Shown here one piece after another: positions 8,747-35,263 of a stretch of DNA of 64,000 nt (the first letter of the stretch is position 1; each line of letters opens with the position of its first letter). Made by a program: the position numbers and the translations under genes. The stretch covers positions 868,001 to 932,000 of the forward strand of contig NZ_CP053452.2 in assembly GCF_013128195.2 (NCBI RefSeq), given 5' to 3'. The stretch comes from Frigoriglobus tundricola (GTDB lineage Bacteria > Planctomycetota > Planctomycetia > Gemmatales > Gemmataceae). A model generated the notes under the pieces. It saw nothing but the letters and a program-made list of their open reading frames with translations. It had not been told where the DNA came from and did not search any database.

Positions 8747-10755
8747 CCGGCATCGTCGTCACCGGGACCGACACGGACGCCGGCAAGACCGCGTTCGCGC
8801 TCCTCTTCCTCACCGCCTTCGCCGACCGGTTCGACTACTGGAAACCGGTGGAGACCGGCGACCCGGACTCGCTCCGCCTGCGGCGCCTGGTTCCGACCGC
8901 GACCGTCCACGAACCACTCGCACGCTTTCGAGACCCCGTCGCGCCGGCCCTCGCGGCGAGGCGCGAGGCGCGCGTCATGCCCGGCGCGGCCGAAATCTGC
9001 GCGGCGCGCCCGAACACGGCGAAACCGCTCGTCATCGAGACGTTCGGGAGCCCGTTTTCGCCGCTCACGGGCGACACGCTCCAGGTCGAGTTGCTTCGTG
9101 CGTTGCAGGCGCCGGCTGTACTGGTCACGCCCTCGAAGGTGGGCGCAGTCGGCCGAACACTCACCGCCGTCCGGGCGATGACTGGTGCTGGCGTGCGGCC
9201 GGTCGCGGTCGCGCTGATGGGACCGCCCGACGACTACGCTGCGGCCCAGATCGCGCGGCACACGGACGGTCTGTCGGTGATCTCGCTCCAACTCCCGGAG
9301 GGGGAATGGACGCCGGAATCGCTGCGTGCGGCTGCGGAGCGGCAGAGAGCGGAACTGACGCGGCTTGTTGAGGGGATTGGGGGCGAAGAACCTACCCCCC
9401 GGTCTGGAGCGCGGAGCGCGGAACGCGGAGTGCGGAACGAAGACCCGGAACCGGGTGGTCCTGGTCTTCCACTCCGCGCTCCGCGCTCCGCGCTCCGCGC
9501 TCCAGACGACTGGCCCGCACGCGACCGGGCCGTGGTCTGGCACCCGTACACCGCACTCGCCGGCGCCGCCGACCCGCTACCGGTGGTGGCCGCGGAACGC
9601 GAGTTCCTGCACCTCGCCGACGGCCGCACGCTCATTGATGCGGTGTCGTCGTGGTGGACGATCCTCCACGGGCACCGCCACCCGCCGCTCGTTGAGGCGC
9701 TCACTGCGGCGGCCGGGCGCCTCGATCACGTCCTCTTCGCGGGCGTCACGCACCCCGCCGCCGTGGAACTCGCGGAACTGATACTCGGGTCGGTGCCGTG
9801 GACCGGCGGCCGCGTGTTCTACTCGGACAACGGCAGCACTGCGGTCGAAGTCGCGCTGAAGATGGCGTACCAGTTCTGGTGCCACCGCGGGGAACCGAAC
9901 CGCACGCTCTTCGTGGGGTTCGAGGGCGGCTACCACGGGGACACGTTCGGCGCAATGGCCGTCGGCCGCGACCCGCTCTTCTTTGGTCCGTTTGAGCCGC
10001 TCCTGTTCCGCGCCCTTCAGGTGCCCGTTTCGGCCGAACGGCTCGACGCCGCACTCGGCGCGAATGCCGGGCGGGTGGCGGCCGTCATTCTCGAACCACT
10101 CGTCCAGGGCGCGGGCGGGATGCGGATGCACACGCCGCAGGAGCTGCGAGCCATCGTTGAGGTCACGCAGCGGCACGGCGTTTTGTTCATCGCCGATGAA
10201 GTGATGACCGGGTGCCGCACGGGCCGCCTCTGGGCGCACTCGCACTCCGGAATCGTGCCCGATCTGATCTGCTCCGCGAAAACACTGGCGGGCGGGATGC
10301 TGCCCCTCGCCGTCACGCTCGCGTCGCCCGGGATCGTCGCGGCGTTCGACACCCCGGACCGGGCGAAGACGTTCTTCCACGGGCACTCGTTCACCGCGAA
10401 CCCGCTGGCGTGCGCCGTCGCGGTCAAGAACTGGCAGTTGCTGGCGAGTCAGGAGTGGCTCGCCGCCGCGCAGCGGATCGAGACGTTCTGGCGCACCCGT
10501 CTCGAACCCCTGCGCGGGCGGCCCGGGGTGACCGACGTGCGCGTCTGCGGAACGATTGCGGCCGTCGAACTCGACGCACCGGGCGGTTACCTCGCGGACA
10601 TAGGGCAGCGGGTTCGGCAGCTCGCGATCAATCGGGGCGTCCTGCTCCGGCCGCTCGGCCCGGTGGTGTACGCCATGCCGCCCCTCTGCACGTCGGACGA
10701 ATCACTCGTCCGTCTCGCGGACGCGATTCGCGCTGCGGTAACCGGTACAGATTGA
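8743..10755 (+). CDS. bioDA: Fused dethiobiotin synthetase-DAPA aminotransferase (BioD-BioA)
   Basis: This 670-residue bifunctional protein carries BioD at about 1-218 and BioA at about 258-670. BioD shows the P-loop GTDTDAGKTAF, WKPVETG and VIETFGSPFSPL. BioA shows WHPYTAL, YSDNGSTAVEVALKMA, EGGYHGDTFGAMAVG, the DEVMTGCRTG region, the PLP lysine in SAKTLAGGMLPLA and FFHGHSFTANPLACA. BioA makes 7,8-diaminopelargonate from the BioF product and BioD closes the ureido ring, so the fusion joins consecutive steps. Residues 221-255, the linker, are encoded by a palindromic repeat. The ATG overlaps the bioF stop as ATGA. Fused BioD/BioA proteins are known in plants and fungi. Confidence 0.93.
   Translation: MTGIVVTGTDTDAGKTAFALLFLTAFADRFDYWKPVETGDPDSLRLRRLVPTATVHEPLARFRDPVAPALAARREARVMPGAAEICAARPNTAKPLVIETFGSPFSPLTGDTLQVELLRALQAPAVLVTPSKVGAVGRTLTAVRAMTGAGVRPVAVALMGPPDDYAAAQIARHTDGLSVISLQLPEGEWTPESLRAAAERQRAELTRLVEGIGGEEPTPRSGARSAERGVRNEDPEPGGPGLPLRAPRSALRAPDDWPARDRAVVWHPYTALAGAADPLPVVAAEREFLHLADGRTLIDAVSSWWTILHGHRHPPLVEALTAAAGRLDHVLFAGVTHPAAVELAELILGSVPWTGGRVFYSDNGSTAVEVALKMAYQFWCHRGEPNRTLFVGFEGGYHGDTFGAMAVGRDPLFFGPFEPLLFRALQVPVSAERLDAALGANAGRVAAVILEPLVQGAGGMRMHTPQELRAIVEVTQRHGVLFIADEVMTGCRTGRLWAHSHSGIVPDLICSAKTLAGGMLPLAVTLASPGIVAAFDTPDRAKTFFHGHSFTANPLACAVAVKNWQLLASQEWLAAAQRIETFWRTRLEPLRGRPGVTDVRVCGTIAAVELDAPGGYLADIGQRVRQLAINRGVLLRPLGPVVYAMPPLCTSDESLVRLADAIRAAVTGTD
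9403..9506. repeat. Palindromic repeat forming the BioD-BioA linker
   Basis: Left arm 9403-9444 (tctggagcgcggagcgcgga and onward) and right arm 9464-9506 are near-perfect reverse complements across a 19-base loop. The unit gcggagcgcggaacgcggag recurs in degenerate form inside hisF at 18524-18617. It lies exactly between the two enzyme domains. Confidence 0.92.
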
Positions 10756-31624: not shown

Positions 31625-32728
31625 TCACGGCTTGGGCGGCACGGGAAGCGGTTCGGTCGGTAGTCGGGCGGGTGGGATACGATTATCCTCCGCGTTCTGT
31701 TTCGTTGGAACAGGAGCCTGGCCCGCTTTCGGTTTCACCCGACTCGGCGGCTGCTTCAGTGACGTCATCCACGCCTCTTCCAGTTCGTCGATCGAGTTGA
31801 AGCCGTACACGTCCTTCGCCGCCTTCGACCACGACTCGACCGTGTTGTCCCGTGTTCCCAGTTGAACAAAGGCGATCAACCGGCGGTGGCGGTCCTCGCC
31901 CGTGATCGGGAACATTGTTCCGACGGTCGGGAAATCCTGCAGAACGGTTGCTACGGCGGGTCGACTCGCCAGGAACCGGGCCAGCGAGTGCCCTTCCGCG
32001 TACAGCACGATCATATCTCGCGGATATTCGGTCATAGGAAGTAGCGCGCGGAGCCGTATGCCGCGCCCGGCGTTCAGGAGTTCGCGAACGCGGACATCGT
32101 GGTTGAACTGTTCCTCGTCCGATTCGGCCGTGACTGCTATACCCTCATCCGCCCAGCGCGGCAGTTGCTTGCCGAAGTGCGAGGCAAGAACCGTGTGCAT
32201 GATCTCGTGCGGGAGTGTGCTGTTCAGCGCCTGGACGAAACTGTCCCGCAGTTCCATGCTGGCCGATGTCAGGACCGGCTCACCGGCCGGGTTCTTGCCG
32301 AACGTGAACGTGGTGGCACCGCCGCTCGCGCCGTGATTGACCGTGAAGCGGACCACACACGGCTTCGACCACGCGGGCAGCTCCTGCCCCAGCCACTTGA
32401 GGGCGAGCGCGCGACGGTGGAACTCGGCCTCAGAGGCGATCACGCGGGCCATCATTGGGGTGGGCGCGTGAACGACGAAGTTCGGCGAACGGAACTGGCT
32501 GCCGACCTCATCCGCTCGTGCGTCCGCACCCGTCGCTGTTGGCTTGTTGGAGGGCCAATCGTTCACCACGGTTGAAGGAACGAGTTGTCTTTCGCCCGAA
32601 GTGCCCTGGGGAGGATGAGCGGGACCCGGCGGTTCGGTCGGAGCACCCTCGTTCGACCAGCCGACACCGAGGTAAAACAGGACGGCGGCCCCCGCCGCGA
32701 CCAGCGCCGACACTTTGAATCGGACCAT
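31625..32728 (-). CDS. Membrane-anchored HExxH metallopeptidase-like protein
   Basis: This 367-residue protein, read from ATG 32728, has an N-terminal membrane anchor (FKVSALVAAGAAVLFYLGVG), a Pro-rich linker, and a domain starting near FRSPNFVVHAPTPMMARVIA. The zinc motif HEIMH sits in LNSTLPHEIMHTVLASHFG, followed by PRWADEGIAVTAE, where Glu may be the third ligand as in gluzincins. The C terminus is Pro/Lys-rich. The same frame is open and coding-like upstream of the ATG to about 32890, inside the sigma gene, and the anchor matches that of the intact sigma gene at 33548. It is therefore either the tail of a frameshifted sigma-anchor-peptidase fusion or a separate gene. GGAGG at 32739-32743 supports independent starting. 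Confidence 0.75.
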   Translation of the reverse strand: MVRFKVSALVAAGAAVLFYLGVGWSNEGAPTEPPGPAHPPQGTSGERQLVPSTVVNDWPSNKPTATGADARADEVGSQFRSPNFVVHAPTPMMARVIASEAEFHRRALALKWLGQELPAWSKPCVVRFTVNHGASGGATTFTFGKNPAGEPVLTSASMELRDSFVQALNSTLPHEIMHTVLASHFGKQLPRWADEGIAVTAESDEEQFNHDVRVRELLNAGRGIRLRALLPMTEYPRDMIVLYAEGHSLARFLASRPAVATVLQDFPTVGTMFPITGEDRHRRLIAFVQLGTRDNTVESWSKAAKDVYGFNSIDELEEAWMTSLKQPPSRVKPKAGQAPVPTKQNAEDNRIPPARLPTEPLPVPPKP

Positions 32729-32733
32729 GCTAT

Positions 32734-33459
32734 TCACACCTCCATGTACGGCGACGAGCGCTCGCGGGAGCGCCCCGCCTTCGGGGAACTGCGACACCAC
32801 CGATACCGTGAGCCGGACCAATTCCAGGGAGACCGATCGCCCCGGGGCGCCGGTGCCGGCGACCAGCGCCGCCGCGACCGCCGGCGCGATCCGCGGCGCG
32901 CGAGCCGGGCGCGGAGGACCGACTTGGCCCGTTCGAGGCGCCGGCGCAATGTGCGGGTGCTGCCGCCCAGTTCGGCGGCCGCCTGTTCGTGCGTTTGCCC
33001 CAAAACGAGGCACAGAACGATCGGATCGCGGAGCCGGTCCGGCAACCGGGTCAGTTCATCGTCGAGCGCGGCGGCCAGATCCGTGTGTTCGGTGCGGTCG
33101 GGCGGTTCCACAGCGAGGGGTCGGGCGCCGGCTTCGCGCAGGCGGTTGGTCCGGAGTTGTTCGGCGGTCCGCATTTGCCGGGCGATGCGGCCGGCGACGC
33201 CAACGAGCCACCCCGCGAGCGCGCCCGGCGCGCGGACCGAACCGGCCCGACACGCCAGGGCGAGGAACACGGACTGAAACGCGTCGTCCGCGACGGCCGG
33301 AGACAGCCGCCGGCAGATGCGCTGGACGAGCGGCCCGTGTCGGCGGACGAGTTCGGCGAACGCGCGTTCGTCCCGGTGCGTGGTGAAGCGATCGAGGAGT
33401 TCGGCGTCCGGCGCGACCGCGTCGGCGGTGGGACAGAGCTTGTGAAGGGGAACGGGCAT
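32734..33459 (-). CDS. ECF sigma factor, C-terminal part frameshifted
   Basis: The first about 188 residues are a normal ECF sigma: region 2 (ELLDRFTTHRDERAFAELVR, then DAFQSVFLALACRA and APGALAGWLVGVAGRIA) and region 4 (LTRLPDRLRDPIVLCLVLG, then THEQAAAELGGSTRTLRRRL). After RARLARRG the frame degenerates into an Arg/Ser/Pro tail of about 50 residues. In the neighbouring frame the expected continuation appears at once (APAVAAALVAGTG and onward), leading through a membrane anchor into the peptidase. The switch is near 32885-32896. The gene is likely a broken sigma-anchor fusion, still able to make a soluble sigma. The start is ATG 33459. Confidence 0.85.
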   Translation of the reverse strand: MPVPLHKLCPTADAVAPDAELLDRFTTHRDERAFAELVRRHGPLVQRICRRLSPAVADDAFQSVFLALACRAGSVRAPGALAGWLVGVAGRIARQMRTAEQLRTNRLREAGARPLAVEPPDRTEHTDLAAALDDELTRLPDRLRDPIVLCLVLGQTHEQAAAELGGSTRTLRRRLERAKSVLRARLARRGSRRRSRRRWSPAPAPRGDRSPWNWSGSRYRWCRSSPKAGRSRERSSPYMEV

Positions 33460-33547: not shown

Positions 33548-35263
33548 TTACTTCTTGGCGGGCGTTTTCTGCCCGCGGAGCAGGACCAGGAGTTCGCTCA
33601 CCTGATCGTGCGCCTCCGCCGTCTGGCGAACCACCAGCACCTTGCGCCCCGGCAGGTACTCGACCCCGGCGTCGGCGCCCCAGGACTTCGGCTCAACAAC
33701 CGCTCGCAGCACCTTGACCAGCGCGTCGCCCTCCTTGTCGTCAGAGGCCAACTCGCTCACCGAGTAAACCCGCACAACGGCTTTCACTTTCGCCTGCGTA
33801 CCGCCCGTGCGATTCGGCTGGTTCGCAGAGGAGTTAGGTGTCGGAACGGGTTCCGGTTGGGCGGAATTGATCGGCTCCGGTTGGGGGAGTACGAGGGGCG
33901 GAAGCGGAGCCAGGGGTGGTTTCGGGGCGGGTTCGGGGCGGGGAGGCGCGATCGCCCCTTCACGGTTGGGGAGCGCGAGAGGCGGGAGCGTGACATCAGG
34001 CACCGGCGGAGCGGGCGGGCTCGTCACCGGAGGCTTCACGGCCGGCGGAGGGAGAGCACTATTCCCCCGCGGAGGTGTGGGCGGCGCAGGCGGTACAGGA
34101 GCGACCGGCGGCGTTGGAGGAGTCCGAGGTGTCCGCAGTTGCTCGGCTATACTACGTAAGCGCTCCTGTTCGATCACAAGATGAGCCTTCAGTTGCTCTT
34201 CTGCCATGCGTTTCGCATCGGCTTCTTTTGCGACGGCTTCGAGCTTGGCCAACCGGTCGTGGAGTTTGGCCAACTCTGCCAGCAGGATCTCTCGTTCCCG
34301 TTCCAGTTCGGCGATCCGTTCCTTATCCGCGTTCCGAGCGACCCGCGGTTGCTTTTCCGCTTTTGGCGCGGTCGGCTTCGGCGCTTCCGCCACCTTCCCG
34401 GGTTCCTGTGGCGTGGGGTCTGCGGTGCCGCCCTCCTCGGCCCGCCACCCGGCGACGGCAGTCACCGAGACGGCGCACCCGACCACCACGGCGGCGGCCA
34501 GGGCTTTGAACTTGGCCAGAAACATCGTCTTCATCGTCCCCTCCATCAGCGCGGCCACCGGGGCGGCGACCGCCGCCTCTCCGACTGCCACCAGTTTTCC
34601 AAATCGAATCGTCGGTTCGAGCAACTCACCTGCCACCGCGGCCGGCGCGACAATCGCGGCGAGCCCGGCGGCCGGGACCACGAGCCCGTACCGTGCCAGC
34701 CGCCGGGTGAGGAGCGCACGGGCTCGTGCGAGGCGGCTGGACAGCGTGCCCTCGGTCCACCCGAGCCGAACGGCCGCGTCGCGCCGGTGCAGCCCTTCCA
34801 GGTCGCACGCCACCACGGCCGCCCGGTACGCGTCCGGGAGCGCCGCGAGTTCCCGGTCAAGGGCTTCGCGCAGTTCGGCCGCGAGACCGTCGTCGGGTAA
34901 CTCCTCTCCGGTACGCAGCGCTGCGGCCCGTGCCTCACGCACGCGGCGGGCGGCGGTCACCCGCCGGGCACCGAGCGCCGTCCGGTACGCGACGCCGTAC
35001 AGCCAGTTGCCAAGGAGAGATTGAGGCTTGATCGTTTCCGCGCGGCGGGCCAGGACGAGGAACGTGGCCTGGAAGGCGTCTTCGGCGTCCTGGCGGTGGC
35101 GCAACACGCGCCGACACACGGCCAGCACCATCGGCCCGTGCCGGTGAACGAGCGCGGCGAACGCCGGCCCGTCCCGGTCGGCCACGAACCGATCGAGGAG
35201 GTCCGCATCGGAGGCGGCGGCGGTCGTAGCGACCAGTTGCCGCAGGCGAGCGAGGTCAGTCAT
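33548..35263 (-). CDS. Membrane-anchored ECF sigma factor with periplasmic C-terminal domain
   Basis: This 571-residue protein carries ECF sigma regions 2 and 4 at 1-190 (DAEDAFQATFLVLARRAETI; ALPDAYRAAVVACDLEGLHR; GWTEGTLSSRLARAR). Two hydrophobic stretches follow, one at about 195-212 (VVPAAGLAAIVAPAAVAGEL) and a main anchor at about 250-270 (ALAAAVVVGCAVSVTAVAGW). Next come a coiled coil of about 60 residues (ELEREREILLAELAKLHDRL and onward) and a Pro-rich spacer. A C-terminal domain reading SWGADAGVEYLPGRKVLVV resembles secretin-type short domains. Signals outside could thus act directly on a tethered sigma. It is tandem with the sigma gene at 32734. An internal ATG (34535) with GGAGGGG before it could also produce the anchor part alone. 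Confidence 0.88.
   Translation of the reverse strand: MTDLARLRQLVATTAAASDADLLDRFVADRDGPAFAALVHRHGPMVLAVCRRVLRHRQDAEDAFQATFLVLARRAETIKPQSLLGNWLYGVAYRTALGARRVTAARRVREARAAALRTGEELPDDGLAAELREALDRELAALPDAYRAAVVACDLEGLHRRDAAVRLGWTEGTLSSRLARARALLTRRLARYGLVVPAAGLAAIVAPAAVAGELLEPTIRFGKLVAVGEAAVAAPVAALMEGTMKTMFLAKFKALAAAVVVGCAVSVTAVAGWRAEEGGTADPTPQEPGKVAEAPKPTAPKAEKQPRVARNADKERIAELEREREILLAELAKLHDRLAKLEAVAKEADAKRMAEEQLKAHLVIEQERLRSIAEQLRTPRTPPTPPVAPVPPAPPTPPRGNSALPPPAVKPPVTSPPAPPVPDVTLPPLALPNREGAIAPPRPEPAPKPPLAPLPPLVLPQPEPINSAQPEPVPTPNSSANQPNRTGGTQAKVKAVVRVYSVSELASDDKEGDALVKVLRAVVEPKSWGADAGVEYLPGRKVLVVRQTAEAHDQVSELLVLLRGQKTPAKK

Follow-up and report, generated by a model that had tools for sequence, protein, structure and literature searches.

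A frame-broken ECF sigma factor-anchor-peptidase gene in Frigoriglobus tundricola, its intact fused relatives in Gemmata and a candidate internal translation start

Planctomycetes are rich in ECF sigma factors, and we know of few experimental studies of those that bear extensions. Among ECF57 sigma factors, WD40-type C-terminal extensions are prevalent, though not universal (PMC8999054, PMC8567305), and one conserved Cys in region 2 together with another in region 4 is a feature of the group (PMC8999054). In SCO4117 of Streptomyces coelicolor (ECF52), a transmembrane part at the C-terminus tethers the sigma factor, and the protein also has a Pro-rich stretch and an extracytoplasmic domain (PMC8999054). 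In IutY of Pseudomonas putida (ECF243), the sigma factor is fused to a membrane regulator and activated by proteolysis (PMC8999054).

Here we describe a sigma factor gene in the window, that is, the whole analyzed stretch of 64,000 nucleotides from the 9.86-Mb genome of Frigoriglobus tundricola (designated G000). Sigma70 region 2 scored over its cut-off at 150 places in this genome, many of them in open frames of 500-1600 aa. One minus-strand ORF of the window (32734-33459, 241 aa) was recognized as a sigma factor by Pfam search (Sigma70_r4_2, 7e-9; Sigma70_r2, 1e-5), with PF04542 and PF08281 (regions 2 and 4, respectively) both over cut-off. In another minus-strand frame (33013-31625), an Ala-rich segment and a hydrophobic anchor were found along with a domain bearing HEIMH followed by WADEG. 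The features of this gene and of its neighbor are as follows.

32890..33459, minus strand: ECF sigma domains (regions 2 and 4), assigned by Pfam; 65-67% identity to intact relatives
32885..32896, minus strand: frame break RARLARRG/IAPAV, where the window copy is a net one base short compared with the five intact orthologues (tblastn and codon comparison)
32729..32890, minus strand: Ala-rich linker between sigma and anchor, with homology in the peptidase frame only (alignment z)
32739..32743, minus strand: Shine-Dalgarno-like GGAGG, 10 nt upstream of the anchor ATG
32734..32736, minus strand: stop codon that ends the sigma ORF out of frame, 5 nt upstream of the anchor ATG
31625..32728, minus strand: anchor-peptidase ORF from its own ATG (32726-32728), 367 aa plus stop; 55-60% identical to the corresponding portion of the intact fused proteins
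32660..32713, minus strand: predicted hydrophobic membrane anchor VSALVAAGAAVLFYLGVG, from sequence and homology to the anchors of the family
31757..32488, minus strand: metallopeptidase-like domain, a weak Peptidase_MA_2 match (PF13485, under cut-off)
32195..32209, minus strand: HExxH motif (HEIMH); HE..H is invariant in 6 of 6 group A sequences
32144..32146, minus strand: Glu residue within WADEG, a possible third ligand for zinc; it does not vary in group A or among the separate paralogues
33548..35263, minus strand: intact neighboring sigma-anchor gene, 571 aa, with Pro-rich and Secretin_N-like C-terminal parts (Pfam and sequence)
34532..34544, minus strand: GGAGG and ATG inside the neighboring gene, at its anchor (sequence; family-wide test)

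When the window was compared by tblastn with an intact relative (L047), its reading frame switched exactly at position 32890, and the matching segments of L047 abutted in a single frame, one ending at 10561 and the next beginning at 10562. The stretch between break and anchor scored 87-103 in the peptidase frame against all five intact relatives (z of 10-15 against shuffles), and 11-15 in the sigma frame, with z below 0, which is the chance level. Codon comparison with the five orthologues indicated a net loss of one base in the window copy. These alignments show the window gene to be a frame-broken copy of an ancestral one-frame sigma-anchor-peptidase gene. The preliminary description of this locus had placed the loss of the sigma frame after RARLARRG, within 32885-32896, with linker, anchor and HExxH continuing in the other frame, and had taken the neighbor at 33548 for an intact one-frame sigma-anchor gene; both assignments agree with our results. 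In the neighbor, residues 498-559 form a weak Secretin_N-like domain (E-value of 0.026).

The sigma part fits an ECF57-like type, as judged by two conserved cysteines and by paralogues that bear WD40 domains. C78 and C181 reached 90% conservation or more among 63 paralogues of the same genome, C49 and C147 were invariant in the five orthologues, and both Cys residues were present in the window. About 13-15 of the 63 paralogues had matches to WD40 or related propellers; no WD40 match was detected by Pfam search in the fused proteins.

Intact one-frame sigma-anchor-peptidase proteins were identified in 5 of the 18 other Gemmata genomes searched, Gemmata sp. IIL30 being one species with the intact form. 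They range from 589 to 601 aa and share 58-73% identity with the first sequence in the alignment. A scan of a genome collection with the fused alignment had returned only two fused loci and one distant sigma factor, and a genome-by-genome search was used instead. These five proteins and the window copy constitute group A, which is carried by only 6 of 19 Gemmata genomes. Additional fused genes were assigned to group B (L035 and L036, which carry an additional part at the C-terminus) and group C (L037 and L038). Maximum-likelihood analysis placed all ten of the fused domains found in a single clade (96/100), apart from the separate Gemmata paralogues of the domain, so that one fusion event in Gemmata would be the simplest reading. 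The intact orthologues show that the ancestral gene encoded one predicted protein, in which an ECF57-like sigma factor is joined through an Ala-rich linker to a single membrane anchor and a domain of the peptidase-MA type. An ancestral one-frame sigma-anchor-HExxH protein had been proposed beforehand, with the absence of the fused form from all Gemmata-like genomes named as the contrary outcome; five congeners contained the fused form, and that outcome did not occur.

Several features of the fused loci were also observed. No synteny between the window and its relatives was found in the flanks past the gene itself. A conserved protein of about 175 aa was encoded directly downstream and on the same strand as the fused gene in three genomes (G008, G010 and G013; loci L161, L047 and L096) and was absent in the window. 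Group A contained an insert resembling a secretin signature (L047:10001-11776, plus strand, residues 484-517; Pfam Secretin, 25.2 bits, cut-off 27.5), and no such insert was seen in the separate paralogue. One group C gene, L038 (G000:C1:5690362), is interrupted by a TAG nonsense codon, and its catalytic motif is degenerate.

The peptidase-type domain shares HExxH and a WADEG-like motif with the Peptidase MA superfamily (PF13485), with a weak profile match: E-values were 0.03 for the window, 3e-4 for L047 and 3e-6 for a separate paralogue, and the bit scores of the latter two (21.1 and 27.6) were below the curated cut-off of 32.4. The gluzincin-type hallmark, HExxH with a downstream Glu ligand, was present in group A, where HE..H and WADEG were invariant. 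The domain differs from the superfamily in that its score is under the curated cut-off and the two other fused branches are catalytically degenerate (PPEVTH and PREVAR in group B, PQEMTR in group C). No relatives of the domain were found by sequence among solved structures, and AlphaFold2 confidence was too low to be used for the fold (pLDDT of 44 for the domain and 42 for the full protein). The separate paralogue, present in most genomes looked at, has a signal-peptide-like N-terminus, and in the fused proteins the anchor is followed by a Pro-rich linker; on these grounds, a location outside the cytoplasm, across the membrane from sigma, is predicted for the domain.

A candidate Shine-Dalgarno sequence and ATG precede the anchor not only in the window copy, which has retained them, but also in the intact genes. 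All five intact orthologues had the codons GCG AAA GGA/GGG GTC ... ATG at this place, spelling AAAGGAG or AAAGGGG. We define a combined test as a Shine-Dalgarno core shortly upstream of an in-frame ATG, compared with synonymous recodings. Such a site was found just before the anchor in 44 of 94 sigma-anchor genes, compared to approximately 11.5 expected. In G000 alone, there were 28 sites in 70 genes (null, 8.2; maximum of 16 in 200 recodings); other Gemmata had 11 in 14 (null, 2.0), and further loci, mostly of other genera, 5 in 10 (null, 1.3), whereas control windows shifted by 35-120 codons were near the null. Since the motif was first spotted in part of the tested sample, the loci of other genera offer the cleanest held-out test, which is a small one (n=10). 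One of the queries was a hand-written consensus, used for fetching loci only.

Within 49 Gemmata sigma-anchor genes, the Gly codon at the anchor site was GGA in 34 (13% expected), third-position GC fell to 0.37-0.39 at the two codons of the site, and GGAG occurred within 20 nt upstream of the anchor Met in 71%, versus 5.4% of 483 control Mets. With amino acids and Shine-Dalgarno codons held fixed, 44 of the 49 sites had mRNA around the anchor Met that was less folded than in synonymous recodings, with a mean z of +0.98 (controls, -0.03). Most of the 63 G000 members were only about 23-39% identical to the window neighbor (two were 62% identical), which makes common descent of the synonymous sites an improbable explanation. 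Two measures were less distinctive: Shine-Dalgarno duplex energy shifted only weakly relative to synonymous recoding, because Glu-Gly in itself gives a purine run, and in the codon profile of the five orthologues the anchor site was not among the most conserved synonymous windows, although GCG AAA GGA GTC was nearly fixed. By inspection, some of the genes that lack the anchor Met (L124, L063, L151 and L060) showed a purine run and then GTG at similar spacing.

Taken with the position of the motif, these data suggest that internal translation starts at the anchor and would yield a second, sigma-less anchor-domain protein. We tentatively extend this proposal, at somewhat under balanced confidence, to many sigma-anchor genes of Gemmata and relatives, which may each encode two products, a tethered sigma factor and a sigma-less membrane or exported sensor made from the hidden start. 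It had been considered earlier that orthologues of the peptidase might always start at the ATG behind their own ribosome site. This was borne out in one respect, as the fused orthologues keep both site and ATG there, and failed in the other, as the orthologues are fused.

How the window gene came to its present form can be read in several ways. That sigma and peptidase are ordinary neighboring genes that were never fused would explain the good ribosome site and ATG in front of the peptidase, 5 nt past the sigma stop; however, this reading is refuted by the single continuous frame in five congeners and by the window linker, which is homologous to the linkers of the congeners in the peptidase frame only, and we give it practically no credence. 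Programmed -1 ribosomal frameshifting could join the two window frames, which do differ by a net -1 shift, but no slippery heptamer was evident by inspection at CGCCGCGGATCG and the five orthologues, being in one frame, need no frameshift; this candidate was rejected as extremely improbable. Coding signal on both sides and a modest branch length indicate that the break is either recent or an artefact. A sequencing or assembly error, which would make the window gene an ordinary intact fused gene, is a serious possibility that falls somewhat short of probable: the frames on either side are coding-like (GC3 of 0.83 for sigma, 0.81 for the linker and 0.75 for the peptidase), no further damage was seen in the gene, its branch in the tree is modestly long (0.25 versus 0.15-0.18), and another conserved G000 gene (L065, near 12019, minus strand) has a clean frame break with 75% and 77% identity on its two sides. 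On the other hand, the break site is not within a long homopolymer, and conserved genes had 3 frame breaks per 103 covered units in a 464-kb sample of G000 versus 1 per 94 and 2 per 71 in 400-kb samples of two relatives, with no clear difference between these counts. In addition, no further sigma-peptidase gene was found in this genome except L038, which is likewise broken, by its nonsense codon, so that both of these genes are interrupted.

The role of the domain and the meaning of the anchor motif also have alternatives. The preliminary description envisaged a sigma factor carrying its own protease, and the invariant catalytic motif of group A would suit a peptidase that cuts its own tether to free its own sigma. 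This idea fares poorly and we consider it improbable, as the domain is predicted outside while sigma is inside, and the related fused branches have lost the motif and kept the fusion. The predicted location across the membrane from sigma, together with the loss of catalytic residues in two side branches, favors an extracytoplasmic sensor role instead. As for the motif, the conserved AAGGAG could be a signal for elongation pausing or membrane insertion and not a start. Its spacing to the ATG is often above the usual (internal sites are mostly at 11 or 8 nt, most commonly with GGAG ending 11 nt upstream, whereas ordinary starts peak at 5-8 nt with a mode of about 7), and the Met is missing from the site in 20 of 84 sigma-anchor genes. 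However, a pause would need no start codon, yet the other 64 genes have the Met; by inspection, some Met-less genes have a comparable purine run followed by GTG, the mRNA around the codon is open, as is typical where translation initiates, and the Shine-Dalgarno core occurs in differing codon phases and with differing amino acids. We regard a pause or insertion signal as rather unlikely.

The explanation that we consider moderately probable overall combines an ancestral fusion, a tethered sigma factor, an outside domain, an internal second start and a split window copy. According to this scheme, sigma would be kept on the cytoplasmic face of the membrane, and the metallopeptidase-type domain outside would act as a sensor or processing module. 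An outside signal may alter or free sigma, either by conformational change or through proteolysis by other enzymes. Internal initiation at the anchor, from its ribosome site and start codon, would additionally produce anchor and domain without sigma, which might serve as an exported enzyme, a competitor or a scaffold. The window copy would yield two separate halves, a soluble, untethered sigma factor and a membrane peptidase with a start of its own; should the break be due to a sequencing error, this copy would simply be intact.

Joining of a sigma factor to a predicted exported metallopeptidase-type domain, whose motif is intact in one branch and degenerate in others, offers a clear test case for transmembrane signaling by sigma itself. 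The internal start is perhaps the most interesting lead, as its conservation predicts one gene with two proteins for the wider family, and, if the two-product reading is true, the product ratio would set the amount of membrane-held sigma. The naturally split window copy, if real, would provide a ready comparison for the effect of the tether.

Our literature search, mostly of open-access sources, found neither a sigma-metallopeptidase fusion nor an internal start in such genes. The fused genes have common ground with ECF57 in the long C-terminal extension of an ECF sigma factor, the conserved Cys pair and the WD40-bearing paralogues; they differ in that the C-terminal module is of metallopeptidase type and an internal start is proposed. 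SCO4117 has a similar tether, Pro-rich stretch and outer domain, but its outer domain is carbohydrate-binding instead of peptidase-like, and its group has a zinc-finger anti-sigma-like part that was not among the Pfam hits here. IutY resembles the fused genes as a fusion of sigma with a membrane regulator; unlike here, its fused part is an anti-sigma factor and the proteases Prc and RseP are separate proteins. Tethered or membrane-fused ECF sigma factors with C-terminal extensions are already known from SCO4117 and IutY (PMC8999054).
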